Source of the DNA: Sphingobium sp. OAS761
GTDB taxonomy: Bacteria > Pseudomonadota > Alphaproteobacteria > Sphingomonadales > Sphingomonadaceae
NCBI RefSeq assembly: GCF_024168485.1
Contig: NZ_JALJVY010000006.1
Span: 62,001 to 126,000, forward strand
DNA: 64,000 nucleotides
Reading direction: 5' to 3'
Shown here: positions 18,398-59,175 of the stretch, one piece after another
Layout: the number at the start of each line of letters is the position of its first letter
How positions within the stretch are numbered: position 1 is the stretch's first letter
Position numbers and translations under genes: made by a program
Notes under the pieces: generated by a model
Seen by the model: only the letters and a program-made list of their open reading frames with translations
The model's database searches: none
What the model was told of the DNA's origin: nothing

Positions 18398-18425
18398 GCG
18401 CGGTCGCCTGCCCCTGTGCCGACGC

Positions 18426-20033
18426 CTATTCCTCGACCAGCATCGCGCCATAGGCGGTAAGAATACCGGGACGGGCATCGTTTACGGCGTGAAGCACCCG
18501 GCCTGCGACGGGCATTTCCACGGGCCAGTCCGCGTCGCGAGACGTCAGGTTGAACAGGCAGAGCAATGATTGCCCGTCTGCCCGGCGCCGGAATAGCAGG
18601 CACTGGTCGTCGGCGACCAGCACATCCAGCCTGCCATGGCGCAGCGCGGGATTGTCCCTGCGCAACGCGAGCATGGCGCGGGTAAAGTGCAGCAGCGAGG
18701 CGGGGTCGCTTTCCTGCGCGTCCACCGCGCGGGCAATGTTTTCCTCGCCATGCGGCAGCCACGGTTCCACGTTGGAAAATCCTGCCTGCGCCGCGTCTAT
18801 CACCCATGGCAGCGGCGTGCGCGCGCCATCCCGGGACAAGGTGAGTGGCCAGTTGGCGATGGCTTCGGGATCCTGTAGCCGCTCATAGGGAATATCGACC
18901 TGCGTCAGGCCCAGTTCTTCTCCCTGATACAATATGGCGTTACCGCGCAGCGCGATGAGCAACATGGCCTTCAGCCGCGCGAAGGCGGCATGGTCATCCG
19001 GCGCGCACCACCGCGACAGGGCGCGTGGAGCATCGTGATTTTCAAACGCCCAGCTTGGCCACCCCATGCCCGGTTCGTCCGGCCAGCGCTCGATCGTGTC
19101 GCGCACCAGTGCGGGAGTAAGGGCGTCGGCATAAAGGAAGTTGAAGCCATAGGCGCTGTTGAGACGGTTTTCGCCAGCCGTATAAGCTTTCATCTCACTT
19201 TCGGCGAGGTCGCCGCCGACTTCGGCCACGGTGAAGACGGCCCCGTAATCGTCGCACAGGGCGCGGATGCGTTGTACGAAATCGACGACGCCAGGATGCG
19301 ACTGGCTGTAGCGCCTGATCTGATAGTCGAACGAGCGGGTACGCGGCTTGCCCGTGTCGGGGGCAGGCGGATTGTCGCGCAGTTCGGGGTCATGCATCGC
19401 GTGATTGAGCGCGTCGAGCCGAAAGCCGTCGACGCCCCGGTCCAGCCAGAAACGCATCGCGCCGAGCAGCGCATCCTGCACCGCCGGATTGTGGACGTTA
19501 AGTTGCGGCTGGCTGGCAAGGAACTGGTGCATATAATATTGGCGCCGCCGCGCGTCCCAGGTCCAGGCTGGACCACCGAACACCGATTGCCAGTTGTTGG
19601 GCGGCGTGCCGTCGGCCCTGGGATCGGCCCAGACATACCAGTCGGACTTCGCGCCCATGCGGCTGGCGCGGCTGGCGGCGAACCAGCCGTGCAGGTCGGA
19701 CGTGTGGGCATAGACCTGATCTATCGTCACCCTGAGCCCCAGTTCGTGCGCGCGGACGACCAGCGCGTCGAAATCGTCGAGCGTGCCGAAAATCGGATCG
19801 ACATCGCAATAATCTGCGATGTCATAGCCGAAATCGCGCATGGGCGAGGTGAAAAAGGGCGATATCCAGATCGCATCGGCGCCAAGGCGCGCGATATGGT
19901 CCAGCCGCGCCGTGATACCGTTCAGATCACCGATGCCGTCCTGATTGCTGTCGCAAAAGCTGCGCGGATAGATCTGGTAGATGACGGCGCCCTTCCACCA
20001 GGGCAGATCGGTCGACGAGGGCTCGAATGGCAT
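18426..20033 (-). CDS. GH13 alpha-glucosidase
   Basis: A 535-residue cytoplasmic GH13 enzyme with no signal peptide. The barrel begins WWKGAVIYQIYPRSF. The nucleophile Asp lies in DGFRLDALNH, the acid/base Glu in VAEVGG and the transition-state Asp in FENHDAPRA. QPQLNVHNP before the nucleophile marks the oligo-1,6-/alpha-glucosidase branch. It releases glucose from maltose or other alpha-glucosides. It is 36 bp downstream of the kup stop codon side, on the same strand, and convergent with the thiolase. No MalT or LacI regulator or transporter lies nearby. Confidence 0.92.
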   Translation of the reverse strand: MPFEPSSTDLPWWKGAVIYQIYPRSFCDSNQDGIGDLNGITARLDHIARLGADAIWISPFFTSPMRDFGYDIADYCDVDPIFGTLDDFDALVVRAHELGLRVTIDQVYAHTSDLHGWFAASRASRMGAKSDWYVWADPRADGTPPNNWQSVFGGPAWTWDARRRQYYMHQFLASQPQLNVHNPAVQDALLGAMRFWLDRGVDGFRLDALNHAMHDPELRDNPPAPDTGKPRTRSFDYQIRRYSQSHPGVVDFVQRIRALCDDYGAVFTVAEVGGDLAESEMKAYTAGENRLNSAYGFNFLYADALTPALVRDTIERWPDEPGMGWPSWAFENHDAPRALSRWCAPDDHAAFARLKAMLLIALRGNAILYQGEELGLTQVDIPYERLQDPEAIANWPLTLSRDGARTPLPWVIDAAQAGFSNVEPWLPHGEENIARAVDAQESDPASLLHFTRAMLALRRDNPALRHGRLDVLVADDQCLLFRRRADGQSLLCLFNLTSRDADWPVEMPVAGRVLHAVNDARPGILTAYGAMLVEE

Positions 20034-27384: not shown

Positions 27385-27464
27385 CCTGAAGACAAAAGGT
27401 AGAGGCCTTTCAGGCATCCTCTCCTAAAACTTTCAGGGCTGGCCTCCGGGCCGGCTCTTTTTTT
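27385..27464 (+). ncRNA. Candidate small RNA resembling the suhB/MmgR family
   Basis: This 80-base region in a gene-free stretch (26983-27430) looks like a compact sRNA. A 5' hairpin (GAGGCCT-TTC-AGGC with outer CCTC) is followed by a single-stranded TCCTCTCCTAAAACTTTCA, then a strong Rho-independent terminator with TCCG loop and seven T. The CCTCTCC stretch could pair with GGAGAG ribosome sites, which are very common in this genome. The layout and the CUCUCC-AAAACUUUCAGGGC run resemble my memory of the alphaproteobacterial suhB/MmgR RNAs. The 5' end is estimated. Confidence 0.5.
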
Positions 27465-27618
27465 GCCTATTAAGGTCGTGCAGGGGCTCTTCAAGCCGGT
27501 TCGGCCGCTTGACGCCCCCCGCCAGGGGACAGATGAGGCGATTGATGTGCATCTCATCCTGAACGCCATCGGCAAGCGCCAGGCAAAGCCAATCCAGAAA
27601 CCGCGCCAGCAATTGCAT
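27433..27618 (-). CDS. Small hypothetical protein
   Basis: A 61-residue open frame, MQLLARFLDWLCLALADGVQ followed by a charged half ending KKSRPGGQP. It has an unusually good ribosome site (GGGAGAGGAG five bases before the ATG), the main reason to report it. The N-terminal half could form an amphipathic helix. Its last codons lie antisense to the terminator of the candidate sRNA. No family is recognised. Confidence 0.4.
   Translation of the reverse strand: MQLLARFLDWLCLALADGVQDEMHINRLICPLAGGVKRPNRLEEPLHDLNRQKKSRPGGQP
27436..27464 (+). terminator. Rho-independent terminator
   Basis: A 9-bp stem GGGCTGGCC/GGCCGGCTC (two G-U pairs) with loop TCCG is followed directly by TTTTTTT. No plus-strand protein gene precedes it, so it most likely ends the small RNA. 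Confidence 0.75.
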
Positions 27619-36827: not shown

Positions 36828-37553
36828 TTAAAGCGCGTTCAGCACCAGTTCCGCATGTTCCTTCCGACAGATCAGCAGGTCGGGCATGTATACGTCCTTC
36901 TGATTGTAGATCATCGGCGATCCGTCGATGCGGCTGACATGAAGGCCATGGGCCAAAGCCACGGCCGCGGGCGCGCAACTGTCCCATTCATATTGCCCGC
37001 CGGTGTGGAGATAGATGTCGACTTCGCCCCGGATGATCGCCATCGCCTTCGCGCCGGCGGAGCCCATGCCGACCAATTCGGCGCCGATCTGTTCCGCCAC
37101 GCGCACGGCTTCCGCGGCGGGGCGGGTACGGGAAACCACCATGCGCAGCGTGTCCGGTGCCGGCGGAACCGGCGCCGGTTCATCCGTCCGCAGCACAAGG
37201 TCCATGCCCGGCAGCGCCACCGCGCCAATGACCGGCGCGCCGTCGACGGCCAGCGCCACATGGACGGCCCAGTCGGTCCGTTCCTCGCCATATTCGCGCG
37301 TGCCGTCGACCGGATCGATAATCCAGACGCGCGACTTTTCCAGCCGTTCGGCGCTGTCCTTCTCCTCCTCGGACAGCAATCCGTCCTCGGGCCGCTGCTC
37401 GCGCAGGGCGTGACAAAGGAATTGATTGGCGGTCTGGTCGCCGGCCTTGCCCAGGGATTTGCCCCCGAACATGCCCGACGCCCTTACCTGAAGCAGAATC
37501 CTGCCTGCCTGTTCGGCCAGATGGGCCGCGAGTTCCGCGTCGCTCCGGCTCAC
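36828..37553 (-). CDS. cysQ: 3'(2'),5'-bisphosphate nucleotidase CysQ
   Basis: A 241-residue protein of the inositol monophosphatase fold. Metal ligands are in [11 protein letters not shown], the signature [13 protein letters not shown], and the second signature [16 protein letters not shown]. It hydrolyses PAP, the by-product of sulfate reduction via PAPS, to AMP. Its ATG overlaps the cysNC stop (ATGA), so it belongs to the same operon. Confidence 0.93.
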
Positions 37554-39469
37554 GGGATCAACCTCTTGATGATCTCGTCGGCCGCTTCGTCGGCACTCAT
37601 TACCGTGGTGTCGATACAGATTTCAGGGTCCACCGGCGGTTCATAGGGACTGTCGATACCCGTGAAGTTCTTCAGAGCACCCGAGCGTGCCTTCTTGTAC
37701 AGGCCCTTCACGTCCCGCTTTTCGGCCTCGGCCAAGGGCGTGTCGATATGAACCTCGAAGAATTCACCGGGCTGCATCATCTGGCGCACCATGTCGCGTT
37801 CGGCCCGGAAGGGCGAGATGAACGCGGTAATGACGATCAGGCCGGCGTCGGTCATGAGCTTCGCTACCTCGCCGACACGCCGGATATTTTCCACACGATC
37901 GGCATCGGTGAAGCCCAGATCCTTGTTCAGGCCGTGACGCACATTGTCGCCGTCGAGCAGGAAGGTGTGGCGGTTCATGCGGGCCAGCTTCTTTTCGACG
38001 ATGTTCGCGATCGTCGACTTGCCCGCGCCCGACAGCCCGGTCAGCCACAGGACCGCGGGCTTCTGGTTCTTCATGCCGGCATGGCTCTCGCGCGTCACAT
38101 CGGTCGCCTGCCAATGAACGTTGTCGGCGCGGCGGAGCGAGAAGTGGATCATGCCTGCCGCCACCGTGGCGTTGGTCATCTTGTCGATCAGGATGAACCC
38201 GCCAAGATCCCGGTTCTGCGCATAGGCCTCGAACGGTACGGGACGGTCGGTCACCAGATTGGCGACACCGATGGCATTGAGGTCCAGCGTCTTGGCCGCC
38301 AGATGCTCCATCGTGTTGACGTTGACCTGATATTTGGGCTGCTGAATGGTCGCGGTAACGGTTTGCGCGCCGATCTTCAGCCAATAGGGCCGGCCGGGCA
38401 GCATTTCGTCGTCCGCCATCCAGACGATCGTCGCTTCGAACTGGTCCGCAGCCAGCACCGGCTCGTCCGCCGTCGAAATGACGTCGCCGCGCGAACAGTC
38501 GATCTCGTCCTCGAAGCAAAGGGTCACGGACTGTCCGGCCACCGCCTCGTCCAGATCGCCATCGAGCGTAACGATACGGCTGATCGTGCTGTTCCGGCCC
38601 GAAGGCAGCACGCGGATCTTGTCGCCCGGACGCACCGTCCCGGTCGCAACCTGGCCGGAAAAGCCGCGAAAGTCGAGATTGGGGCGGTTGACCCACTGTA
38701 CCGGCATGCGGAACGGCTTGGCTGCGTCAGCGGTGCTGTCGACCTCGACGGTTTCGAGATGCTCCATGAGCGCGGGGCCGGTATACCAGGGGGTATTGGC
38801 CGACGCTCCCGTGATGTTGTCGCCCTTGAAGCCGGAAATCGGCATGGGGGTGAAACTGTCGATGCCGATCGACTTCGCAAATTCGGTATATTCGGCAACG
38901 ATACGGTCGTAGACCGCCTGATCATAGTCGACCAGATCCATCTTGTTGATGGCCAGCACGATATTCTTGATGCCGATCAGATGCGCCAGATAGCTGTGCC
39001 GCCGCGTCTGGACCAGTACGCCCTTGCGCGCATCGATCAGGATCACCGCGAGGTCGGCGGTCGAGGCGCCGGTCACCATGTTGCGGGTATATTGTTCGTG
39101 ACCGGGCGTATCGGCGACGATGAACTTGCGCTTTTCGGTCGCGAAGAAGCGGTAGGCAACGTCGATCGTAATACCCTGTTCACGTTCGGCGGCAAGGCCG
39201 TCGACCAGCAGGGCGAAGTCGATCTCCTGCCCTTGCGTGCCAACGCGCTTGCTGTCGGCTTCCAGCGCAGCCAGCTGATCCTCGAAGATCATCTTGCTGT
39301 CGTAGAGCAGACGCCCGATCAGTGTGGACTTGCCGTCATCCACCGACCCGCACGTGATGAAGCGCAGCATCGTCTTGTGCTGGTGAACTTCCAGATATTT
39401 GTCGATGTCCTCTGCGATAAGGGCGTCGGTCTTGTAAATCGGATCGCTGACTGCGGTGGTCTCGCTCAT
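37550..39469 (-). CDS. cysNC: Bifunctional sulfate adenylyltransferase subunit 1 / APS kinase
   Basis: A 639-residue fusion. The N-terminal GTPase part (about 1-450) shows the P-loop [27 protein letters not shown] and NKMDLVDYD and an EF-Tu-like beta barrel. The C-terminal kinase (about 455-639) has [12 protein letters not shown], the [17 protein letters not shown] motif and [10 protein letters not shown]. With CysD it makes APS from sulfate and ATP, then PAPS. Its start overlaps the cysD stop by one base (TGATG). Confidence 0.97.
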
Positions 39470-40413
39470 CAGAAATACCCCTCCTGCTTCTTTTTCTCCA
39501 TGCTGGCGTCGCCGCCATCCTTGTCGATCACGCGGCCCTGGCGTTCGCTGGTGGTCGTCAGCAGCATTTCCTGAATCACCTCCGGCAGGGTCCGGGCTTC
39601 GGATTCCACAGCGCCGGTCAGCGGCCAGCAGCCAAGGGTCCGGAACCGCACCGAACGCTCGGTAATTTCGGGCAACTCACCCAGCACCTTTTCCAGGCGT
39701 TCCAGGTCGTCGGCCATGAAAAGCTGCCCGTCGCGTATATAGGTCGGGCGCGGCGCCGAGAAATAGAGCGGCACGATGTCGATATTTTCGAGGTGCAGAT
39801 ATTGCCAGATGTCCAGCTCGGTCCAGTTGGAGATCGGGAAGACGCGCATCGATTCGCCCTTCGCCTTGCGCGCATTGTAGAGATGCCACAATTCGGGGCG
39901 CTGAGCCTTGGGGTCCCAGCGGTGCGAGGCGGTACGGAAGGAAAAGATGCGCTCCTTGGCACGGCTCTTTTCCTCGTCGCGCCGCGCGCCTCCGAACGCC
40001 GCATCAAAGCCATAAAGATCAAGCGCCTGCTTCAGACCTTCGGTTTTCCACATGTCGGTGTGAAGCGGACCGTGGTCGAACGGATTGATCCCTTTCTCCT
40101 GCGCTTCCGGATTGTGGTAGACCAGCAATTCCATGCCCGCGTCGTTCGCGGCCTTGTCGCGCAGGGCATACATGTCGCGGAATTTCCAGGTCGTATCGAC
40201 ATGAAGGAGCGGGAAGGGCGGCGGCGAGGGATAAAAGGCCTTCTTCGCCAGATGCAGCATGACCGCGGAGTCCTTGCCGACGGAATAGAGCATCACCGGC
40301 TTTTCTGCCTCTGCGACAACCTCTCGCATGATCTGGATGCTTTCGGCTTCCAGCCTCTGCAAATGCGTCAGGCGGGCTGCGCCCAGCTCCCCGGGGCTGG
40401 TCAATGTCGTCAT
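39469..40413 (-). CDS. cysD: Sulfate adenylyltransferase subunit 2
   Basis: A 314-residue ATP pyrophosphatase with [17 protein letters not shown] (PP-loop, about residues 45-61), [11 protein letters not shown]-type strand (here [11 protein letters not shown]), [20 protein letters not shown] and [11 protein letters not shown]. It catalyses APS formation with the GTPase subunit. First gene of cysD-cysNC-cysQ, divergent from a LuxR-type regulator across 92 bp. Confidence 0.97.
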
Positions 40414-43182: not shown

Positions 43183-45582
43183 TCAGAATTTGATCCGAGC
43201 GTCCACGCCGTAAGAAATCGGCTTGCTGAAGGTCGCGCCGGCGAAGCCCAGCGACCCGAAGTCGATGCCGTACGAGAGACGCTTCTGGTTGAGCAGATTG
43301 TCGCCCCAGAAACCCACGTCAAGTGTGCCGCCGCCCAGTTGGATGTCCTCGACCGAAAGCCGTGCCTTCACATTGGTCGAATTGGGCGAGACCAGCAATT
43401 CGTTGAACGGCGCGGTATTGTCGAGCGCATTGACGTAAAAGCTCGTGCGGTGCGAATAGTCGCCGCGCAAGCGGACAGTCATGTCTCCGATCGGATAGGC
43501 ATATTCGGCACCAAGGTGAACGGTCCACTTCGGGGAGTAAACCGGCTTGGCCTTGTCCGCGACATCCAGAATGTCATTCGTCGCCGGATCGCGGAAGAGA
43601 AATTCCTTGTACTTGGTCTTCACATAACCAACCGAACCGTCGATCTGGAAACCGGCAAAGGGCGCGGCTGTCAGTTCCGCCTCGAAGCCCGACAGGCGGA
43701 CCTTGCCCGCATTGACGATCAGCGAGGTGGCGCCACCGCTGCCAGCGGCGAATTGCTGGATCTGCAGATTGGTATAGTCGGTCATGTAGCCGGCCAGGTT
43801 CAAACGCACGCGATTGTCCAGGAACTGCGACTTCAGGCCGATCTCATAAGCCTTGGCCTTTTCCGGGTCGAAGCTGTTGATCACATTGGCGCGCGGATTG
43901 AGCCCGCCCGAGCGGTAGCCGGTCGACAGACGGCCGTAGAGCAACACGTCGTCCACGACCTCGTAGGCGGCTGACACGAGGTAGGAGAAATTCTCGAAGC
44001 TCTTGCGGCCGCGCTGAACCGGGAACACATCGCCCGCGAGGTAGATGGTCTTGTCATCCGCAGTGAAGCGGCCACCCAGGGTCAGTTCGAACTTGTCGTC
44101 CAGCGCCGAGGGACGCCAGCTGGCCTGCCCGAACACCGCCATCGACTGGGATGTGCCCCCGAAGGCTTGGTTCGGGTTGACATTGAAGCCGACGGTATCG
44201 AGACCGGGATTGAGGGCAGGGATCGCGCCGCCGAGCATGTCGGCCGTTGCCGCCGGGAACCCGAGCGACTGGAGCGCGGGAGAGAGATAGGCGACCGGCA
44301 GAACCAGCGTCAGCGCCTGGCGATTATCCTCAGAAGATTTTTCCTTGAAATAATACATGCCCAGCAGGTAATTAATGTCTCCGACCTTGCCGAGCGCCTG
44401 CAATTCTTGGCTGAATTGCCATTGCTTCTGCGGTGCGTTGTTGCCGGCATAGGGGTTGACCCGCTGCACCGAGGTTAGTGTCGGCGAGGTGAAATCGATG
44501 ACCTTGCCCAACAGCACGCCGTTGCCCGACAGGTTCAGGATCGTGTCCTGGAAGAATTTGCGATAGCCGGTGATCGACTTGATCGTCAGTTCGGGTATGG
44601 GATCATAGCTGATGGTCAGCGCGTGACCCTGAACCCGCGTCTTGCTGCCATAACGATAATCGCCGTCGCGGTCCGTGAAGCCGGCCTGCTGCGCGGTGCC
44701 CTGCCGCACAGGATCAACCAGGAACGGGTCGCCGCCATAGCTGGGGGATTGCGAGTAATAGCTCTGGGCCAGCGGCGTCGCGGCGACGATCTGGAAGAAG
44801 GCAGGTGTGCCCCGACGGGTGTCGTAGTCGAAATTATAATTGACGGTGACATCGCCGAAATCGCCTTCAAGCCCCAGGGCGAAGGAGGTCGCGTTGATCG
44901 ACCCGGGATCCTTCGACGATGCCGTCAGGGTATTGTCGACATAGCCGTCCGCCTGCTTGTGCTGGGCGGCAATCGATGCCTTGATCACATCACCCAGGAT
45001 GTAACCGGTGTCGACGCGGCCGCGCACATACCAGTCGTTGAAACGGCCATAGCCCGCCTTTGCGGTCACACCGAAGTCATTGGCAGGCTTTTTGGACACG
45101 AGCTGAAGCGCGCCACCGATCGTGTTGCGGCCAAACAGCGTGCCCTGCGGACCGCGCAACACCTCGATCCGTTCCAGATCGATCAGGTCGAACACGGCGC
45201 CGGCCGCACGCGCAAGATAGACGCCGTCGAGATAGATGCCGACGCCCTGTTCAGACACGGCGGACGGTTCGTTGTTGCCGATGCCGCGAATGAACACCGT
45301 AGCCGCCGAGAGGCTGGACGGCTGTTGTTCGATCGTCAGGTTCGGCGCAAATTTGGGCACGTCGGCAGCGTTCGAGATATTCTGGCGCTCGATAAAGTCG
45401 CCGCCAAGCGCGGTCACGGCGACCGGCACATTCTGGAGCGTCTCGGCAGAGCGCCGCGCGGTGACGACAATGTCGCTAAGCCCGGTCTGCGCTTCCCCTT
45501 GCGGTGCTGCGTCCTGCGCGCTGGCAACGGTCGCGAAAGTCATGGACACGCCGGCAACGCCAGCAAAAAGCAACGATTTCAT
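43183..45582 (-). CDS. TonB-dependent receptor
   Basis: A 799-residue outer-membrane receptor: signal peptide (KSLLFAGVAGVSMTFATVASA), TonB box region SDIVVTARRSAETLQNVPVA, plug motifs VFIRGIGNNEP and EVLRGPQGTLFGRNTIGGAL, a 22-strand barrel and C-terminal DARIKF with terminal Phe. Receptors of this IroN/CirA-like group in sphingomonads often import aromatic or steroid compounds, not only siderophores. Placed after the mutase operon, it probably imports the pathway substrate. The ATG at 45582 has GGGAGG upstream. Confidence 0.93.
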   Translation of the reverse strand: MKSLLFAGVAGVSMTFATVASAQDAAPQGEAQTGLSDIVVTARRSAETLQNVPVAVTALGGDFIERQNISNAADVPKFAPNLTIEQQPSSLSAATVFIRGIGNNEPSAVSEQGVGIYLDGVYLARAAGAVFDLIDLERIEVLRGPQGTLFGRNTIGGALQLVSKKPANDFGVTAKAGYGRFNDWYVRGRVDTGYILGDVIKASIAAQHKQADGYVDNTLTASSKDPGSINATSFALGLEGDFGDVTVNYNFDYDTRRGTPAFFQIVAATPLAQSYYSQSPSYGGDPFLVDPVRQGTAQQAGFTDRDGDYRYGSKTRVQGHALTISYDPIPELTIKSITGYRKFFQDTILNLSGNGVLLGKVIDFTSPTLTSVQRVNPYAGNNAPQKQWQFSQELQALGKVGDINYLLGMYYFKEKSSEDNRQALTLVLPVAYLSPALQSLGFPAATADMLGGAIPALNPGLDTVGFNVNPNQAFGGTSQSMAVFGQASWRPSALDDKFELTLGGRFTADDKTIYLAGDVFPVQRGRKSFENFSYLVSAAYEVVDDVLLYGRLSTGYRSGGLNPRANVINSFDPEKAKAYEIGLKSQFLDNRVRLNLAGYMTDYTNLQIQQFAAGSGGATSLIVNAGKVRLSGFEAELTAAPFAGFQIDGSVGYVKTKYKEFLFRDPATNDILDVADKAKPVYSPKWTVHLGAEYAYPIGDMTVRLRGDYSHRTSFYVNALDNTAPFNELLVSPNSTNVKARLSVEDIQLGGGTLDVGFWGDNLLNQKRLSYGIDFGSLGFAGATFSKPISYGVDARIKF

Positions 45583-45670
45583 AACATCCTCCCATGCCGC
45601 CCTCACCCCTTTGATCGGGCGATTCGTTCCCCGCTCATAGCGAGGCAATGCACATTTGCCTGTCATAAAG

Positions 45671-47748: not shown

Positions 47749-47758
47749 AGTCATGTCC

Positions 47759-49480
47759 TCAAATTCCCATGAGTTGGCTGTCGGCGCTGTGCACGCCGAA
47801 TATATCGCGCATGGCGTTGCAGAGTTCACCGTGCGTGGCGTAGGCTTTTACTGCTTCCAGGCACGGCGGCACCAGATTGGCGCCCGTTCGGGCGGCGTCC
47901 CGCACATTGTCCAGCGCCGCGTCGACCGCGGCCTGGTCGCGCCGCGCGCGCAGATCGCGCACCTTGCGCACTTGTTCCTCCTCCATCGAATCGTCGAGAC
48001 GGAAAATCTCTATCTCCCGTTTTTCCTGGGCGCGGGTCAGATGATTGACGCCGACCCATTTGCGCCGACCTTCCTCGATATCCTTGTTGCGTTCATATTG
48101 CTCGCGACCCAGCGCCCGCTGGATATATCCGCCCTCGATCGCCTTGACCGCGCCACCCATGGCGAAGACCTTGTCCAGTTCGGCGAAGGCGGCTTCTTCC
48201 ATCTGCTTTGTCAGCGTTTCGACATAATAGCTGCCCGCCAGCGGATCGATGGTTTCAGCGACCCCGGTCTCATATGCCACGATATGCTGGATGGCTGCGC
48301 CGACGCGAATGGCGTTTTCCGCCGGCAGCGCATGCGCCTCATCATAGAGCGGTGTGGTCATCGCTTCCCCCGCCCCGCCCAGCGCGCACGCCGTCGCCAT
48401 GATCCCGAGCCGGGCAATGTTGTTGAGCGGTTGTTGCAGGGTAAGCGCAATGGTCGTCGGCGACGTCATCATCCGAATTTTGAGGGAGGCGTCAGACGTG
48501 GCGCCATAACGCTCCTTCATCAAGCGAGCCCAGCATTTGCGGAATGCCCGCAGCTTGCACACGCCTTCGAAAAAATCCATGTCGACGTTGACGACGAAGT
48601 GATTGATATAAGGGGCAACTTCGTCTATTGTCAGACCGCGTTCCAGTACCGCATCAATGTGCGCGCAGGCGATGGCTAGCGAGTAGGCGATCTCCTGCAC
48701 CGGGTTCGCCTTGGCGGGCTGCAACTGGGCAGAAATGATCGAGATCGGCGCCCAGTTGGGGTGGTTGCGAATGATATATTCGATGCAGTCTGTCGCGATG
48801 CGCAATCCATGCTCAGGCGGATATATATAGCGGCCGACACACGTATATTCGATCAAAATGCCATTGACGATGTGCAGCACGAAATCCGCTGGATCGATAC
48901 CTTTCTTCTCCAGCGCTGCGATGATCATGGCCAGATTGACCGGCTGCGGCGCGTTGCACACGCTCATCAGATATTTCAGCTTGTCGAACGGCAGGTCGAA
49001 GGCCTTTTCCAGATCCTCCAGGCTGTCGAGCGCCATACCGGCACGGCCCACTTCGCCTTCCACAATCGGATCGTCGCTGTCATAGCCGTTGGTGGTCGCC
49101 AGATCATATTCCAGGATCAGGCCGGACAGGCCCTGATCCAGCATGTAGCGCGCACGCTTCGCCCAGTCCTCGCCCTTGCCGAAACCAGTGACCTGGGTCA
49201 TCGTCCAGAAATCCGTCCGGTGCCCGTTGGGCCGGGTCGAGCGCGTGTATGGATATTCCCCGGGGAAACCGAGGTCGGCACCGTAATCGAAACCGACCGC
49301 GTCAAGGTCCGCAGGCGTGTAAAGCGGCTTGATCGGCCATTTGAGCGCTTGCGTCTCGAACGCTTCCCGGCGTTCCTTGCGTCCTTCGAGTGCCGGCCCG
49401 CGCGTTTCGCGTTCCCAGCGTTCAGCTTCGCCCGCGATATGCTCGCTTTCGCTGACCATGGGTCCGATCGGTCGGTTCAT
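47759..49480 (-). CDS. B12-dependent acyl-CoA mutase large subunit with altered active site
   Basis: A 573-residue homologue of the methylmalonyl-CoA/isobutyryl-CoA mutase substrate domain without a fused B12 domain. The fold is secure: FWTMTQVTGFGKGEDW, TNGYDSDDP, EVGRAGMALDSL, RYIYPPEHGLRI and GVAETIDPLAGSYYVE. Positions that contact substrate in P. shermanii MutB are changed: Tyr89 is His87, Gln197 is Val205, Arg207 is Val215, Tyr243 is Ala251, His244 is Gln252 and Arg283 is Tyr291. IcmA and HcmA, from memory, keep Gln at the Arg207 position and retain the His. The substrate is therefore not methylmalonyl-, isobutyryl- or 2-hydroxyisobutyryl-CoA in any predictable way. Confidence 0.9.
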   Translation of the reverse strand: MNRPIGPMVSESEHIAGEAERWERETRGPALEGRKERREAFETQALKWPIKPLYTPADLDAVGFDYGADLGFPGEYPYTRSTRPNGHRTDFWTMTQVTGFGKGEDWAKRARYMLDQGLSGLILEYDLATTNGYDSDDPIVEGEVGRAGMALDSLEDLEKAFDLPFDKLKYLMSVCNAPQPVNLAMIIAALEKKGIDPADFVLHIVNGILIEYTCVGRYIYPPEHGLRIATDCIEYIIRNHPNWAPISIISAQLQPAKANPVQEIAYSLAIACAHIDAVLERGLTIDEVAPYINHFVVNVDMDFFEGVCKLRAFRKCWARLMKERYGATSDASLKIRMMTSPTTIALTLQQPLNNIARLGIMATACALGGAGEAMTTPLYDEAHALPAENAIRVGAAIQHIVAYETGVAETIDPLAGSYYVETLTKQMEEAAFAELDKVFAMGGAVKAIEGGYIQRALGREQYERNKDIEEGRRKWVGVNHLTRAQEKREIEIFRLDDSMEEEQVRKVRDLRARRDQAAVDAALDNVRDAARTGANLVPPCLEAVKAYATHGELCNAMRDIFGVHSADSQLMGI

Positions 49481-50566: not shown

Positions 50567-51436
50567 ATGAATGCGATTTCCATCCGGCAGGCCAGGGCGC
50601 GTGAGGATCTCGTCCGCGCGGCGGTCACGCTGAACGGTGCGGTCGTGGAACTTTGCACCTATCCCGAAGTGCGGGAGGAGACACTCAATTTCGTTGAGCC
50701 GCAGGCTGTTCTCATGCTCGGACTTTCGCGCCTTCTGTCTGGATCGGAAGGCCGCATCGCAGGCGATCCACGTCGGCCCTTTTTGCGGTTTGGCGCCCTG
50801 GCGCTACGGCCTGCCGGCATACCGCTGGAAATCCATGTCGGGCCCGGGGCGTTCGACACTATCCGAATCCGTTTCGAACCCGCCCGAATCGCCCCGGCGC
50901 TGGAGGGCGCGAAATTCGACGACGCGCTGCTGGCCGCCTGCCTCGATCTGCGGTCCCACCCGATCGAGGAAGCGATGCTGCGGCTTGCGAGCGAACTGGA
51001 TCATTGCGAATCGGATGCTATCGCCATGGTGGAAGCGCTTGTCACGCTCATCCTTCTCGACCTTGCCCGGTATTTGCAGAGCGCAGCGGCGCGCGGCAGG
51101 CGGCGCAGCGGCGGCCTGTCCGCCCGGGCGTTGCGCCGGGCACTGGCCATGATCGACGCGGACGGGCCACCCCCCCAAATCGATGCAATCGCTGATCACT
51201 GCGGCCTTAGCCGCCATCATTTCATCCGCTGTTTCACCCAGTCCACGGGGGTTGGCCCGGGCGCAGCAATTCGGCGCAGACTTATCGAACGGGCCAAGAC
51301 CTTGCTCGTCGAAGGTGACCATCCGATCGATGAAATAGCGAAGATATTGGGATATGCCGGTGCGCCGTCCTTTGCGACCGCCTTTCGTCGCGAAACCGGG
51401 CGTTCGCCCGGCGTCTGGCGAGCGTTGATGCGGTAG
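50567..51436 (+). CDS. AraC-family regulator divergent from the mutase operon
   Basis: A 289-residue regulator with a C-terminal pair of AraC helix-turn-helix motifs (IDAIADHCGLSRHHFIRCF and IDEIAKILGYAGAPSFATAFRRETGRSPG, quoted as two separate motif regions, about residues 204-222 and 250-278). The N-terminal 190 residues contain a CHLD-like sensing fold with no close match to known families. The position opposite the SDR-mutase operon makes it the likely activator. Confidence 0.88.
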   Translation: MNAISIRQARAREDLVRAAVTLNGAVVELCTYPEVREETLNFVEPQAVLMLGLSRLLSGSEGRIAGDPRRPFLRFGALALRPAGIPLEIHVGPGAFDTIRIRFEPARIAPALEGAKFDDALLAACLDLRSHPIEEAMLRLASELDHCESDAIAMVEALVTLILLDLARYLQSAAARGRRRSGGLSARALRRALAMIDADGPPPQIDAIADHCGLSRHHFIRCFTQSTGVGPGAAIRRRLIERAKTLLVEGDHPIDEIAKILGYAGAPSFATAFRRETGRSPGVWRALMR

Positions 51437-52903: not shown

Positions 52904-53323
52904 TCAGGCCGAGACGTTCACGTCCTGATCGAAGCGTACGAAGCGGCGGGCGATTTTCCATTCCCCGTCCGTTTTGACCACGGTGTCGCGCATCCTGCCC
53001 GACACGACAATCTTTGCCGCCATCGGTTGATGGCCGGCATTGACGTTGGTGAACATATAATTGGCCTGAACCTCGCCATTCTCCTCCGTGACGAAGAGAT
53101 TATAATTATAGTGGCGGTTCTTGCCTTCGGTCTGCTGCTCGGACACCTTTGCATGTTCGATCTGCTCGTCGATGCCGCGGAACCGCAGGGGGATGCCTTC
53201 CATTTCGGTTTCGACGTCAGGCGTGTAGAGCGTCGCGAGCGCGTCCCAGTCGCAATAGTCCGAGCAATGGGCGAAACGCGCGATCAGTTCACCGATCGCG
53301 ATCTTGTCTTCCAACGTGACCAT
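52904..53323 (-). CDS. SnoaL-like (NTF2-fold) protein
   Basis: A 139-residue protein of the NTF2-like superfamily: LEDKIAIGELIARFAHCSDYCDW is the typical N-terminal helix pair, followed by LATLYTPDVE and GEWKIARRFVRFD. Members include ketosteroid isomerases, dehydratases and ring-hydroxylating dioxygenase beta subunits; the catalytic residues cannot be assigned here. I place the start at the ATG at 53323 (AAAGACAGG upstream). Last gene of the minus-strand cluster 57476-52904. Confidence 0.8.
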   Translation of the reverse strand: MVTLEDKIAIGELIARFAHCSDYCDWDALATLYTPDVETEMEGIPLRFRGIDEQIEHAKVSEQQTEGKNRHYNYNLFVTEENGEVQANYMFTNVNAGHQPMAAKIVVSGRMRDTVVKTDGEWKIARRFVRFDQDVNVSA

Positions 53324-53339
53324 ATCCTGTCTTTCTTCG

Positions 53340-54227
53340 TTATTGATGTTCGTCATACCAAGGGAAAAAGGGCGGCATCTGCGATGCTTTGCCCGTGAAC
53401 TGCGCCGGGCGCTTTTCATTGAAGGCGCGCACGCCTTCGCGGCCATCGGCCATGCTTGTGTAGAAAACCGCCAGCGATTCGGTCAGGTGCGCCTCCCAAG
53501 GCGTCGCCTGGGCACCGTTGCGGTTGATCATCTGACGGATCAGCGCGATCGACACGGGCGAACGGTCCTTCACCAGTGACCGGGCGAAGGCCTTGGCCTC
53601 GTCCAGCAGGGCATCGGCCGGCAGGACGGCACGCACCAGACCCTTCTCCTGGGCTTCAATGGCGTCAAATATGTCGGCCTTGTAGGCCCATTCCAATGCC
53701 TGCTCAACGCCCACGATACGGGGCAGGAAGAAGGAGGAGCAGGCCTCCATCGTGATGCCCAGCCGCCCGAAGACGAAACCGAAGCGCGCCTTTTCCGAAG
53801 CGAAGCGGAAATCCATCGGCAGCAGCATGGTCGAACCGATACCCACGGCCACGCCGTTAACCGCGCCGACGATCGGCTTGCGGCAATTATACATGGCCAG
53901 GGTGACCCGCCCACCGGTGTCGCGCACGCCCTTCAGCACGGCCGGGTCGTCCGGCGCCGTTCGCAGATCATCCATTGTCGGCGCCATGGCTTCGTCCAGC
54001 CCGAAGACGTTGCCACCGACAGACAGATCCATGCCGGCGCAGAAAGCCCGGCCCTCGCCCGTCACCACGATCACACGGACCGCATCGTCCATGCTCGCCC
54101 GATTATAGGCGTCGATCAGTTCCCCGCACATTTCGACGGTGAAGGCATTGAGCTTGTCAGGCCGATTGAGCGTCAGGAGGAGCAAACCGTCCTCTTCCAC
54201 ATCATAGCGGATCGTCGTGTAGTCCAT
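53340..54227 (-). CDS. Enoyl-CoA hydratase/isomerase family protein
   Basis: A 295-residue crotonase. The oxyanion-hole segments are AFCAGMDLS and AVNGVAVGIGSTM. Of the two catalytic Glu of typical hydratases, the second aligns with the Glu in ALEWAYKADIFDA, while the first position is Phe (FGFVFGRLGI). This suggests isomerase, dehydrogenase-supporting or hydrolase activity rather than classic hydration. It lies between the NTF2-like and nitronate-monooxygenase-like genes of the cluster. Confidence 0.85.
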   Translation of the reverse strand: MDYTTIRYDVEEDGLLLLTLNRPDKLNAFTVEMCGELIDAYNRASMDDAVRVIVVTGEGRAFCAGMDLSVGGNVFGLDEAMAPTMDDLRTAPDDPAVLKGVRDTGGRVTLAMYNCRKPIVGAVNGVAVGIGSTMLLPMDFRFASEKARFGFVFGRLGITMEACSSFFLPRIVGVEQALEWAYKADIFDAIEAQEKGLVRAVLPADALLDEAKAFARSLVKDRSPVSIALIRQMINRNGAQATPWEAHLTESLAVFYTSMADGREGVRAFNEKRPAQFTGKASQMPPFFPWYDEHQ

Positions 54228-54230
54228 CGG

Positions 54231-55214
<984 letters not shown>

Positions 55215-55227
55215 CTATGCACTTGTC

Positions 55228-56301
55228 TCAGGCGCCTGTGGCCTCGTTCCATCCCAGTTCCGCCAGCAGCGGATAATGTGCCGCCAGCGCCTCGGCATGG
55301 GCGGAGGCCGCCGTCCCGCGCAAGGCGCGCGCCTTGATGCCATGATAGATGGCGGCAAGACGGAATAGGGAGAAGGCGCGGTAGAAGTCCAGATCTCCGA
55401 TGCCATCGCGACCCGTGCGACGGCAATAGGCCGCCACATAATCGTCCTCCGACATCAGGCCGAACGTGTCGACATCGGTGCCACGCAGGCCCGACAGGAT
55501 TGTCGGGGGCAGCCGGTACATCATCAGATGATTGACGAAATCGGCCAGGGGGTGCCCCAGCGTCGACAATTCCCAGTCGAGCACGGCCGCCACGCGCGGT
55601 TCGGTGGAATGAAACACCATATTGTCGGCACGGAAATCGCCGTGAACGATGCGGCTTTCGTCCCCGGCGGGAATGTTGGCGGGCAGCCATTCGATCAGGC
55701 GGTCCATATGCGGGTCCCGCCCGGCAACCTCATCAGCAAGATATTGCCGCGACCAACGCGAAATCTGCCGTTCGAAATAATTGCCGGTCTTGCCGAAGTC
55801 AGCCAGGCCCAGTGACGCTGGGTCGAAGCCATGCAATTGCGCCAACGTCCCGTTCATGGCGTCGAGATAGGCGCGCCGCTCGTCACGAGGGACGGATTCA
55901 AAGCGCGAGTTCCAGAACACGCGGCCTTCGACGCATTCCATGATGTAAAACCAGCTGCCGATGACCGCATCATCCGTGCACAGGCCATAGACTTGGGGAA
56001 CTGGAAATCCCGCCTTGCCCAGCGCGCCGATCACCCGCGCTTCCCGGTCCACCGCGTGGGCCCCGGGAATAGTCACCCCGGGGGGCTTGCGGCGCAGGAC
56101 GAAGGAACGATCACGGGTATCAAGCCGGAAGGTCGGGTTGGACTGGCCGCCCTTGAACTGCCGGACGGTCACTTCGCCCTCGGCCTCCGGCACATGGGCG
56201 CGCATCCATTCGCGCAGGGCATTCTCGTCGAAGCGATGTCCCTCGCGCACGGCAGTCGTTCCGGCGTTCAGCGCATCGACCAAATCGCTCGTCCCGCTCA
56301 T
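55228..56301 (-). CDS. APH-family phosphotransferase linked to acyl-CoA dehydrogenase
   Basis: A 357-residue aminoglycoside-phosphotransferase-fold kinase: Lys region FVLRRKPPG, catalytic HGDFRADNMVF and metal-binding LDWELSTLGHPLADF. It matches the kinase domain of ACAD10/ACAD11, which phosphorylates 4-hydroxyacyl-CoAs before the dehydrogenase part removes phosphate. Here kinase and dehydrogenase are separate genes overlapping by four bases, the bacterial version of that fusion. It therefore likely handles a hydroxyacyl-CoA. Confidence 0.88.
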   Translation of the reverse strand: MSGTSDLVDALNAGTTAVREGHRFDENALREWMRAHVPEAEGEVTVRQFKGGQSNPTFRLDTRDRSFVLRRKPPGVTIPGAHAVDREARVIGALGKAGFPVPQVYGLCTDDAVIGSWFYIMECVEGRVFWNSRFESVPRDERRAYLDAMNGTLAQLHGFDPASLGLADFGKTGNYFERQISRWSRQYLADEVAGRDPHMDRLIEWLPANIPAGDESRIVHGDFRADNMVFHSTEPRVAAVLDWELSTLGHPLADFVNHLMMYRLPPTILSGLRGTDVDTFGLMSEDDYVAAYCRRTGRDGIGDLDFYRAFSLFRLAAIYHGIKARALRGTAASAHAEALAAHYPLLAELGWNEATGA

Positions 56302-57476
56302 ATCCTTGCCAGAGCCTCGCGCTTGATCTTCTTGGCCAGCGACCATTTATGCACCTGCGTCGGACCGTCATAGATGCGAAACGCCCGGATTTCGCGAAAC
56401 ACCTGCTCCACGATCGTGTCGTGGCTGACCCCGGTCCCGCCCATCACCTGAACGCAGCGATCCGCGACGCGAAACAGGGTTTCGGAAATCGCGACCTTCG
56501 CCATGGAGCTTTCGGTGATCGCCTTGCTTCCCGCATCCAGCGCGTCGGCGCACCAGTCGATCATGAGCGCACACTGTTGAAGATCGATAAGATTGTCCGC
56601 CAGCATGAAGCCTACGCCTTCATGGTCGATCAGGGGCTTGCCGAACGCCTGCCGCCGGACCGCATAATCGGTCGCAATCTCGTTCGCCCGGGTCGCCGCG
56701 CCCAGCCAGCGCATGCAATGAGTAAGGCGCGCCGGAGCCAGGCGCACCTGCGCATAGACGAAGCCTTCATGCGGCGCCCCGAGAATGGCATCCGCCCCAA
56801 GCCGAAGATCGTCGACCTTCACGACCGCATGCCCGCCCGGCATCGAACTGTCGATGGTGCCGATCAGCCTTTCCTGAACCAGCGCGGGGTGCGGCAGCGG
56901 CACAAGGAACATCGTGGCTGCATCCTTCCCGTCATCGCGCACTGTCTTGGCCATCAGAATGGCGAATTTGGCGCCGGCAAAACCGGTGGCGAACGCCTTG
57001 CGGCCATTGATCACCCACATGTCGCCCTGCTTTTTCGCCTGCGTCTGCATCATCGACGGGTCCGATCCGGTACCGCCGTCAACGGCCGGTTCCGTCATCA
57101 GGAAGCAGGAACGCCCATCACCTGCGATCATGGGCTCCAGGAACTGCGCCTTTTGCTCAGGCGTCGCGACCTTGCCGAGCAGGAACATATTGCCTTCGTC
57201 GGGTGCATTGGTGTTGCAGGCGAGCGGCCCGAGCGGCGACAGGCCCGAAGCACGCAGCACGATAGCCGTGTCGCGGTGGGACATATGACTGCCGTCCGCA
57301 CGGATATGCGGGGTGAGCACGCCCGCAGCCCGCGCCTTCGACCGCATTTCCTGCACCATGGTGTCCAGCGGGCCATGGCCATCGTGGCGCTCGTCGCCCT
57401 CATAGGCAATCACGACGTCGCGAACGAACGCTTCCACCTTCCGCGCCATGGCGACGCCTTCGCTCTGTTCAGGCAT
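56298..57476 (-). CDS. Acyl-CoA dehydrogenase, ACAD10/11-like
   Basis: A 392-residue flavoenzyme of the acyl-CoA dehydrogenase superfamily: FLMTEPAVDGGTGSDPSMM (FAD/substrate loop), YAVRRQAFGKPLIDH, CVQVMGGTGVSHD and RIYDGPTQVHKWSLAKKI. The usual position for the C-terminal catalytic Glu is not obvious, fitting the ACAD10/11 group. It is the first gene of a five-gene minus-strand cluster. The ATG at 57476 has AAAGGAAC upstream. Confidence 0.9.
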   Translation of the reverse strand: MPEQSEGVAMARKVEAFVRDVVIAYEGDERHDGHGPLDTMVQEMRSKARAAGVLTPHIRADGSHMSHRDTAIVLRASGLSPLGPLACNTNAPDEGNMFLLGKVATPEQKAQFLEPMIAGDGRSCFLMTEPAVDGGTGSDPSMMQTQAKKQGDMWVINGRKAFATGFAGAKFAILMAKTVRDDGKDAATMFLVPLPHPALVQERLIGTIDSSMPGGHAVVKVDDLRLGADAILGAPHEGFVYAQVRLAPARLTHCMRWLGAATRANEIATDYAVRRQAFGKPLIDHEGVGFMLADNLIDLQQCALMIDWCADALDAGSKAITESSMAKVAISETLFRVADRCVQVMGGTGVSHDTIVEQVFREIRAFRIYDGPTQVHKWSLAKKIKREALARI

Positions 57477-57591
57477 GTCTGTTCCTTTCCCGGCAAAGGG
57501 CGCTTGCCAAGCCCAGAACGACAAAGCAAGTTGTAATAAAGCGTCGGATGGCAAAGCCGGTGCTTATCGCGAGAGGATGGACGGACGACGC

Positions 57592-59175
57592 ATGACGGAC
57601 AAGCGGTTTCGCAAGGAAGAACATCATGGCCGGGTCGTCACCTGCCACGGTGACAGGCCAACGGACATATTCGCCATGTTCCTCGATACCGTGGCGCGCG
57701 CGCCCGATGCGGTGGCGCTGGTCGATGGCGACATACGCTGGACTTATGCGACACTCGCCCGGCGAGCCGGACAATGCGCCGCACGACTGGCCGCGCTTGG
57801 ACTGGTCGCCGGCGACCGGCTGGGCATTCTGCTGGACAACCGGGCGGACTATACGACGCTATTGCTGGCGTCAGCGCGCCTTGGGCTCATCGCCGTGCCG
57901 ATGAATATCCGCCAGAAACCGCCGGAAACCGCACATGCGCTAACCGACAGCGGTGCGGTCGCGCTGGTATATGAAAATATTTTGGCAGACCAATTGCCGA
58001 ATCGCGGGGCGTTACCGGACCTGCGCCTCTGGCTGCCCTACTCGACCGAAGCGGCGCTCTGGGACCGTCAGCCCGTCATGGCCGCCGATGGGCCGCAGCG
58101 ATCGGCGGTGACGGAGGACGACCCCTTCTGCATCCTCTATACATCCGGGACTACCGGGCGCCCCAAAGGCGCGGTCCTGACGCATTTCGGTGTCGTCACA
58201 AGCTGCCTCGGCAGCCGCGATCATCTCCACCTGCGCGACGGTGAGGCGATGGTCCTGTCGGTGCCGGCGTCGCACGTCACCGGTATCGTCCTGGTGCTGA
58301 TGCTGGCTTTGTGCGTGGCGGGAAAGCTGGTCGTGCAGCGTGGCTTCAAGGCCAAGCAGTTCCTGGAATTCGCACAGGCAGAAGGCGTGACCTATGCGAT
58401 CATGGTTCCGGCGATGTACAAGCTGTGCCTGATGGACGAGGACTATGCCGCCTTCGACCTAAGCCGATGGCGGATCGGCGCCTATGGCGGTGCGCCCATG
58501 GCGGAAGCGACTATCGAAAAACTGGCGCGCGAGACGCCCCAGCTCACACTGGTCAATATCTACGGCTCCACCGAAACGACGTCGCCCGCCGTCATGATGC
58601 CGCTCGGCGAGGGGCCGTCGCGCCGCGATCAGGTGGGCCGGGCGCTGCCCTATGCCGACATAGTGATCATGGACGCGGATGGACGCCAATGCCCAGCCGG
58701 CCAGCAGGGCGAAATCTGGATAGCCGGGCCCATGACGGTGCCGCGCTATTGGAACAATGCGGACGCAAGCGCGACGAACTTTACCGGCGGATACTGGAAG
58801 TCGGGGGACATCGGGGTCATGGACGCCGACGGCTATATCCGGCTGCTCGACCGGATGAAGGACGTGATCAACAGAGGCGGGTTCAAGATATATTCGGTCG
58901 AGGTCGAAAATGTGCTGATGGCCCATGATGCCGTCGCGGAAGCCGTCGTCGTAGGCCGTCCCTGCCCGGTGCTGGGGGAGCGGGTCGAGGCGTTCGTCGT
59001 CGCGCACGAAGCGGTCCGGGACGACGCATTGCGGCAATTCTGCGCAGACCGGCTTTCAGACTACAAGATACCGGATCATGTCTACATCGTGGACGGCCCC
59101 CTGCCCCGCAACGCCAATGGAAAACTTTTGAAGAATGTCGTGCGTGAATGGCTGCCGCCGGTCGCCGCGCAATAG
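57592..59175 (+). CDS. Acyl-CoA synthetase (AMP-forming)
   Basis: A 527-residue ANL-family ligase: YTSGTTGRPKGAVLTH (P-loop), NIYGSTETTSPA, YWKSGDIGVMDADGYIRLLDRMKDVINRGG and the catalytic Lys in PRNANGKLLKN. It forms an acyl-CoA from a carboxylic acid, ATP and CoA, the activation step of this region. It is divergent from the acyl-CoA dehydrogenase. The start is uncertain: ATG 57577 directly abuts GAGAGG, and ATG 57592 is 15 bases after it. Confidence 0.93.
   Translation: MTDKRFRKEEHHGRVVTCHGDRPTDIFAMFLDTVARAPDAVALVDGDIRWTYATLARRAGQCAARLAALGLVAGDRLGILLDNRADYTTLLLASARLGLIAVPMNIRQKPPETAHALTDSGAVALVYENILADQLPNRGALPDLRLWLPYSTEAALWDRQPVMAADGPQRSAVTEDDPFCILYTSGTTGRPKGAVLTHFGVVTSCLGSRDHLHLRDGEAMVLSVPASHVTGIVLVLMLALCVAGKLVVQRGFKAKQFLEFAQAEGVTYAIMVPAMYKLCLMDEDYAAFDLSRWRIGAYGGAPMAEATIEKLARETPQLTLVNIYGSTETTSPAVMMPLGEGPSRRDQVGRALPYADIVIMDADGRQCPAGQQGEIWIAGPMTVPRYWNNADASATNFTGGYWKSGDIGVMDADGYIRLLDRMKDVINRGGFKIYSVEVENVLMAHDAVAEAVVVGRPCPVLGERVEAFVVAHEAVRDDALRQFCADRLSDYKIPDHVYIVDGPLPRNANGKLLKNVVREWLPPVAAQ

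Follow-up and report, generated by a model that had tools for sequence, protein, structure and literature searches.

The adenosylcobalamin (AdoCbl)-dependent mutases of the PF01642 family known so far, among them methylmalonyl-CoA mutase (MCM) and 2-hydroxyisobutyryl-CoA mutase (HCM, subunits HcmA and HcmB), to our knowledge act on small acyl-CoA substrates and share one thioester-holding site. In these relatives, Arg87, Thr195, Gln197, Arg207, Tyr243, His244, Arg283, His328 and Gln330 (MutB numbering) presumably fix CoA chain, thioester and acyl group in place, and we assume that Arg87, Arg82, Met78, Ser164 and Thr195 line the CoA channel. For human MMUT, published work describes Tyr110, His265 and Arg228 (MutB 89, 244 and 207) as touching the substrate and Arg108 (MutB 87) as exposed to the cavity (PMC11988910). 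Here we describe a member of this family in which most of these residues are replaced. It is the large, substrate-barrel subunit of a predicted AdoCbl mutase encoded in a 64,000-nucleotide stretch of the Sphingobium sp. OAS761 genome (contig NZ_JALJVY010000006.1, positions 62,001 to 126,000), hereafter the window. With a little better than even confidence, we read it as a functional, AdoCbl-dependent carbon-skeleton mutase that represents a distinct subfamily not yet described and would serve in aerobic catabolism of steroids or steroid-like polycyclic isoprenoids.

The large subunit is a full-length family member

The initial annotation had assigned the large subunit to the mutase family over its full length, and profile searches bear this out: it matches both PF01642 (508 bits, E 3e-152) and TIGR00641 (481 bits, above the cut-off of 304) end to end. 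It scores below the cut-offs of the NCBIfam equivalog models for MCM (390 bits, cut-off 876) and IcmF (172 bits, cut-off 1500), and its MeaB is a separate gene. The nearest sequence in the Protein Data Bank (PDB) is HcmA (4r3u, E 1e-114), while the MutA chain 1e1c_B reaches only E 9e-30. A Foldseek search with a weak model of the subunit gave 41 matches at E <= 0.001, all of them mutases and the best again 4r3u (E 1.4e-28). Apart from the large subunit, the window genome (4.25 Mb, 36 contigs) matches PF01642 only in a 739-codon frame, which encodes a canonical MCM; the large subunit is therefore not the housekeeping enzyme.

The substrate site is replaced and the cofactor side largely kept

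Active-site residues were compared in a 46-row alignment of 19 subfamily rows and 27 other mutases. The latter comprised seven Sphingomonadaceae MCMs, three relatives from the same class (41-42% identity), haloarchaeal, clostridial, fusobacterial, Deinococcus, rhizobial and Methylobacterium rows, and MeaA (taken as ethylmalonyl-CoA mutase-like), IcmF, Xaut_5021, Xaut_5043, HcmA, MutB and human MMUT. We take Xaut_5043 to be pivalyl-CoA mutase (PCM) and Xaut_5021 to be HCM. MutB numbering was fixed through the 5req/MutB row, in which the title of 5req (Y89F) matches the Phe at that column.

Six active-site changes had been claimed from the sequence, and five stand: Gln197 is replaced by Val205 in 17/19 subfamily rows, and Arg207 by Val215, Tyr243 by Ala251, His244 by Gln252 and Arg283 by Tyr291 in all 19. 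The sixth, Tyr89 to His, was a register slip, as His87 aligns with Tyr79 and the counterpart of Tyr89 is Val97, in a column that holds Ile in HcmA and Leu in the Xaut_5043 row. The five changes and Val97 are fixed in 17-19 of the 19 subfamily rows. Alignment error as the source of the changes was rejected on this 46-row test, in which Tyr89 alone of the six assignments failed.

The replacement extends beyond the residues first listed. Thr195 has become His203 (17/19) and Arg87 Thr95 (16/19); Arg82 is Asp90, in a column that varies within the subfamily and holds Arg in none; His328 and Gln330 have given way to Met338 and Ser340 (Met and Ser in 19/19). Also replaced are Met78 (Gly86), Ser164 (Leu171), Asn236 (Ala244), Glu247 (Pro255) and His364 (Thr375). 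Arg87, Thr195, Gln197 and His244 are present in 27/27 comparison rows versus 0/19 subfamily rows; elsewhere in the comparison set Tyr243, Ser164 and Thr166 are conserved in 26/27 each, Arg82 in 25/27, Gln330 in 24/27 and His328 in 23/27. The statement that all characterised mutases keep His244 thus agrees with every comparison row, few of which are biochemically characterised, and the companion claim of Arg or Gln at position 207 fits 26/27 but not the Xaut_5043 row, which has Asn. The large subunit lacks the family-typical catalytic pair His244 and Gln197 (Gln252, Val205). All four of the presumed CoA-channel residues Arg82, Arg87, Ser164 and Thr195 are gone (Asp90, Thr95, Leu171, His203; 25-27 of 27 elsewhere), which makes ordinary acyl-CoA binding doubtful.

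We next compared where losses fall, calling a position conserved if it is the same in at least 25/27 other mutases (n=90) and kept if it is found in at least 17/19 subfamily rows. Sixty-three positions are kept and 27 lost; all 27 losses lie at MutB 73-386, and 0/19 conserved positions beyond 400 are lost (Fisher P 5e-4). Gly91, Glu370, Ala371 and Pro375, which we take to be cofactor contacts, are retained in 19/19 subfamily rows. Exceptions among the presumed cofactor neighbours are Glu247, which is Pro in 17/19, and Gly333, which is Thr in 19/19. As read from the alignment, the B12 side has mostly been preserved and the substrate side, including the presumed CoA channel, rewritten; the conserved motifs predict that the subfamily binds the cofactor. 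There is good support for a B12-dependent enzyme whose substrate pocket has been rebuilt and is conserved.

Against five relatives, dN/dS is 0.043-0.088 (Nei-Gojobori, 483 codons), values that are rough because dS is high (0.95-1.40). By these estimates the subfamily is under purifying selection. A decaying pseudogene is ruled out by the low dN/dS (0.04-0.09), the fixed new residues and the intact partner genes.

The subfamily forms a clade of its own

The 19 subfamily rows form a clade with 100/100 support on a stem of 1.73 changes per site. A thinned tree (8 subfamily rows; PCM, MeaA and IcmF removed) separates the subfamily from the rest with the same support and a stem of 1.69. Xaut_5043 groups with the subfamily in the full tree (97/90), a join that the tree tool flags as a meeting of long branches. 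The active-site changes are common to a clade that runs from Alpha- and Gammaproteobacteria to Myxococcota. Identities are 81-92% from the sphingomonads to Haliea, Zhongshania and a gammaproteobacterial metagenome-assembled genome (MAG); an unplaced proteobacterial MAG reaches 79%, and two further MAGs, one myxococcotal and one deltaproteobacterial, 61-64%.

Within the Sphingomonadaceae, 7/298 genomes carry the mutase (six full-length at 84-100%, one partial at 86%), and beyond these none of the matches listed exceeds 40%. Four of 385 genomes in a class scan pass E 1e-110, namely the window's own genome and three with relatives at 42-43% identity that retain the ordinary Tyr-His pair; in a phylum scan of 398 genomes the own genome alone passed. 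Plasmid records with a match (n=410) divide into 12 at 90-95%, all from Sphingobium, and 398 under 60%. A scan of 84,980 species returned 15 loci, every one of this subfamily, and absence from it is weak evidence because the scan relies on two exact peptide patterns. No title or abstract opening among those listed in literature searches describes the subfamily, and we found no known subgroup with an established substrate that would include the large subunit. Separately, a 43% mutase relative (L033:1501-3126) has an in-frame TAA at the column of MutB Tyr79, where its close relatives L034 and L035 have Tyr; this is either a sequencing error or decay.

Partner genes are conserved and some loci carry steroid-type genes

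Twenty loci were compared (the window, L036, L037, L038-L052, G189 and G061); gene absences among them are soft, because flank lengths differ between loci. The mutase has its own B12 subunit in 20/20 loci and MeaB in 19/20, the exception being L045, whose contig begins at the mutase. An AraC orthologue lies beside the mutase in 15/20 loci and an EthD gene beside the mutase genes in 14/20. The upstream short-chain dehydrogenase (SDR) is found in 6/20, window included, the other five copies being 69-76% identical to the window's.

A KshA-type oxygenase is encoded near the mutase in 7/20 loci, as judged by homology to the copy in L040 (PF19298), whose nearest solved relative is KshA (4qdc, E 4e-51). 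In L048, CysD, CysNC and phosphatase genes are followed by HsaC-type and IpdA-type genes 6-7 kb from the mutase. The HsaC-type gene scores 302 bits, below the model cut-off of 450, and matches 2zi8 at E 3e-77; the IpdA-type gene matches 6co6 at E 6e-82, versus 2e-28 for glutaconate CoA-transferase. We take 2zi8 to be HsaC and 6co6 to be IpdA. G084 has an HsaC-like gene 29 kb from the mutase. An orthologue of the window's CoA ligase is near the mutase in 4/20 loci, among them G189 and G061, where it is 66-73% identical and adjoins EthD, and L038, whose contig ends in a fragment of it 1.4 kb beyond EthD. With these ligases nearby, the substrate may yet be a CoA ester.

Mutase carriers also tend to have HsaC-like genes in their genomes. 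Such genes (E <= 1e-60) occur in 46/298 family genomes, in 7/7 mutase carriers versus 39/291 non-carriers (P 1.4e-6 by genome); by genus the figures are 4/4 carriers' genera versus 24/96 overall (P 0.003). None of 14 named control genomes has one. Further carriers have an HsaC-like gene in 9/11 cases (threshold E <= 1e-40; best match of each 3.3e-74 or better), which brings the count to 16/18 carrier genomes examined.

Several carriers are known degraders. Published work describes Sphingobium sp. Chol11 and S. herbicidovorans MH as bile-salt degraders (PMC12175502) and MH-B5 (Altererythrobacter, now Croceicoccus estronivorus) as an estrogen degrader whose estrogen cluster is on the same contig accession as mutase locus L040 (PMC7793797). 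The first of these sources also lists C. tardaugens and N. aromaticivorans as bile-salt degraders and calls side-chain removal in that route 'largely unknown' (PMC12175502). An assignment as the bile-salt side-chain enzyme was rejected, as C. tardaugens and N. aromaticivorans are not among the matches of the two-peptide-pattern scan. The words 'mutase' and 'cobalamin' are absent from PMC12882949, PMC8399759 and PMC12175502. Two papers on N. tardaugens report a methylmalonyl-CoA mutase in a propionyl-CoA cluster and genes for B12 synthesis, with induction on testosterone or estradiol; as described, this mutase appears to be the canonical enzyme. Degradation of steroidal glycoalkaloids, suggested by tomato Sphingobium strains, was also set aside: the paper on those strains does not use the word 'mutase', and a tomato-specific role is argued against by S. 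herbicidovorans and marine genomes, which carry the mutase as well.

Operon and surroundings in the window

In the window the genes run in the order SDR, large subunit, B12 subunit, MeaB, EthD protein and TonB receptor (Table 1); at the junctions, genes overlap in ATGA or TGATG or are 4 bases apart. The B12 subunit with its DxHxxG motif and MeaB are intact, as first described, and the genes overlap or almost touch. The small subunit starts at 47754, after GAGGA, and not at 47829 as in the list of open reading frames (ORFs); its annotated orthologue in L036 likewise has 141 residues. MeaB starts at the ATG at 47329, overlapping the small-subunit stop. The model of the EthD protein (pLDDT 89.8) has modest PDB matches of alpha-beta-barrel type (best E 1.4e-4), including a putative chlorite dismutase, 4-methylmuconolactone methylisomerase and EthD-family chains. 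The TonB receptor is 78% identical to the copy in L036 and 56-77% to those in L052, G061, G189 and G084.

Table 1. Features of the mutase operon and its surroundings (window coordinates; aa, amino acids)
Feature	Coordinates	Strand	Remarks
TonB-dependent receptor	43183..45666	-	start uncertain; downstream, same direction
EthD-domain protein, 199 aa	45774..46373	-	PF07110; ATGA (4-base) overlap with MeaB
MeaB-type G-protein chaperone, 319 aa	46370..47329	-	TIGR00750 318 bits, cut-off 241
B12-binding small subunit, 141 aa	47329..47754	-	DTHTVG (DxHxxG); PF02310; TIGR00640 above cut-off
AdoCbl mutase large (substrate-barrel) subunit	47759..49480	-	ORF 573 aa, exact coordinates
Short-chain dehydrogenase (SDR), 319 aa	49477..50436	-	PF00106; ATGA overlap with large-subunit gene
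AraC-type regulator	50567..51436	+	PF12833; divergent, upstream of operon
SnoaL-like	52904-53446	-	possible catabolic neighbour; profile searches
Enoyl-CoA hydratase	53340-54227	-	possible catabolic neighbour; profile searches
FMN reductase/NMO type	54231-55205	-	possible catabolic neighbour; profile searches
APH-type phosphotransferase	55228-56346	-	possible catabolic neighbour; profile searches
Acyl-CoA dehydrogenase	56298-57554	-	possible catabolic neighbour; profile searches
AMP-forming CoA ligase	57448-59175	+	possible catabolic neighbour; profile searches
Baeyer-Villiger-type flavin monooxygenase, 657 aa	59294..61267	+	PF00743

The Baeyer-Villiger-type monooxygenase matches phenylacetone monooxygenase (E 9e-60) and steroid monooxygenase (E 2e-54); its flavin domain begins about 150 residues in, and the best-scoring stretches are confined to that domain. 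No cobalamin riboswitch scored above the Rfam gathering score within the window; a suhB / mmgR-type small RNA did (27398-27471, + strand).

About 3 kb beyond the TonB gene lies a sulfate-activation set (CysD, CysN/C fusion and CysQ-like phosphatase; 36828-40413, - strand), and the same set is found less than 1 kb past MeaB in L048 (13813-17449), 75, 70 and 31% identical gene by gene. A leucine/isovalerate-type pathway, guessed from gene sizes, proved wrong, the 314/639-residue pair being CysD and CysNC. PF13469 sulfotransferases are encoded near the mutase in other loci (L050:12947-14302, L047:15-1208, L046:14278-15462, L071:11436-12611 and 18253-19749); they twice adjoin a DUF1214-type protein, and the L046 copy was called by homology only (76% to that of L071). 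Sulfotransferases are odd for a degradation cluster and possibly point to a sulfation-elimination step; together with them, the sulfate-activation set may supply 3'-phosphoadenosine 5'-phosphosulfate for sulfation within these clusters. In the Croceicoccus estronivorus region, about 30 kb from the mutase, L072:9632-13465 encodes a CofGH fusion and CofE for the biosynthesis of coenzyme F420, as well as an oxidoreductase of F420 type, a gene set conserved in G189 and G061. F420 in sphingomonads deserves attention.

Discussion

The initial annotation had proposed a new rearrangement on a bulky or ring-derived acyl-CoA. A bulky or ring-derived substrate fits the steroid-type neighbourhoods; the acyl-CoA part is less secure, and the rearrangement is an inference, probably one not previously described. 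From sequence, we expect a bulky steroid-derived substrate, a larger pocket and catalysis by a 1,2-shift. MeaB would load AdoCbl onto the DxHxxG subunit, over which the large subunit would close; Co-C homolysis would yield the adenosyl radical, which would take a hydrogen from the substrate, and a neighbouring group of the substrate radical would undergo the 1,2-shift. The nearly fixed replacement set (Thr95, His203, Val205, Val215, Ala251, Gln252, Tyr291, Met338 and Ser340) suggests a larger, less polar pocket, in which a carbonyl would most likely find its new polar contacts in Gln252, His203 and Tyr291. The likely role would be to clear a block to beta-oxidation by shifting a methyl-branched or quaternary carbon in a steroid-derived intermediate.

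Several observations weigh against this reading. Steroid-type neighbours are found in a minority of loci, with KshA-like genes in seven of the 20, HsaC and IpdA close by only in L048 and HsaC alone only in G084, and the flanks of most named loci are at most 10 kb. The window's own neighbour genes are not diagnostic of steroids, and both HsaC-like genes of its genome are on contig C13, away from the mutase. Two carriers, L045 (a 1.6-Mb MAG) and L049 (a MAG), have no HsaC-like match at the thresholds used. The co-occurrence count leaves out 12 plasmid-borne carriers and handles kinship at genus level only. Every HsaC-like match is below the curated cut-off of the HsaC model, and other extradiol dioxygenases may be among them; the matches therefore do not prove HsaC but mark meta-cleavage catabolism of the steroid or a related type. 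The bile-salt degraders C. tardaugens and N. aromaticivorans gave no match in the two-peptide-pattern scan, which places the enzyme probably outside the core bile-salt route. The AF2 model of the large subunit (mean pLDDT 63, pTM 0.70) is too weak for pocket analysis.

Among other explanations, we regard as unlikely a PCM-like enzyme, that is, a classical small-acyl-CoA mutase for an acid with a quaternary alpha-carbon, with a strongly drifted pocket and conventional CoA binding. It would account for the position of Xaut_5043 (taken as PCM) in the full tree, for the features this row shares with the subfamily (loss of Arg207 to Asn, Tyr243 altered to Gln, His at Tyr79) and for the CoA ligase and acyl-CoA enzymes nearby in the window. 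Against this, the join is the one flagged as long branches meeting, identity to Xaut_5043 (31.5%) is below that to the MCM and HCM rows, and Xaut_5043 retains Arg87, Thr195, Gln197, His244, His328 and Gln330, all lost here.

An inactive homologue, either a pseudoenzyme or a regulatory partner like the MutA beta chain for MutB, seems to us improbable. It would suit the absence of His244, Gln197 and further active-site residues, and MutA is a precedent; the large subunit here, however, has its own B12 subunit and MeaB, retains most presumed B12 contacts, is encoded in an operon without a second large subunit, is much closer to HcmA than to the MutA chain, and carries replacements that are fixed across the subfamily. 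We give similarly low credence to AdoCbl radical chemistry of a different class (an elimination, a dehydration or a deamination) carried out on the mutase scaffold: the pocket is without the residues that stabilise acyl migration and the surrounding genes handle hydroxyls and ketones (SDRs, an APH-type kinase and, in some loci, sulfotransferases), but we know of no PF01642 member that performs such a reaction.

A long shot is that CoA has been abandoned altogether and a polycyclic ketone enters the emptied barrel for a biological Dowd-Beckwith ring expansion. The adenosyl radical would take a hydrogen from the angular methyl beside a ring ketone, and the carbonyl would migrate onto that methyl; with a 17-keto steroid or a ring-C/D fragment, for example, a blocking quaternary carbon would become tertiary.

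The reading we prefer, a mutase of steroid or steroid-like breakdown, would supply a candidate enzyme for bacteria in which steroid degradation is incompletely understood, and possibly a tool for the rearrangement of bulky scaffolds. A conserved branch with the radical machinery but without the thioester site would mean either that a new class of substrates is used or that radical rearrangements are steered in a new way.

Comparison with known systems

MutA, the beta chain of Propionibacterium MCM, is likewise a diverged barrel and very distant from the large subunit (E 9e-30). We take MutA to be non-catalytic and to pair with MutB, whereas the large subunit here has a B12 subunit and MeaB of its own. 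IcmF has a homologous barrel but a fused G-domain, 25% identity, and both His244 and Gln197. In Xanthobacter autotrophicus, the large- and small-subunit genes Xaut_5043/5044 (taken as PCM) adjoin a MeaB-type gene, as here, and the Xaut_5043 row resembles the subfamily in non-Arg at 207, non-Tyr at 243 and His at 79; it differs in its low identity and in retaining His244, Gln197, Thr195 and Arg87. The MCMs (MutB, human MMUT and the sphingomonad enzymes) share the family fold, Gly91, Glu370, Ala371 and Pro375 and a MeaB-type chaperone; at 33.5-38.8% identity, their carboxylate, thioester and presumed CoA-channel residues are replaced here (Val215, Val97). HcmA/HcmB (4r3u) is most alike, with separate large and small subunits and the best PDB match in both sequence and fold. 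At 37.7% identity, HcmA nevertheless keeps Arg87, Thr195, Gln197, Tyr243, His244, His328 and Gln330, has Gln at 207, and falls in a clade separate from the subfamily.

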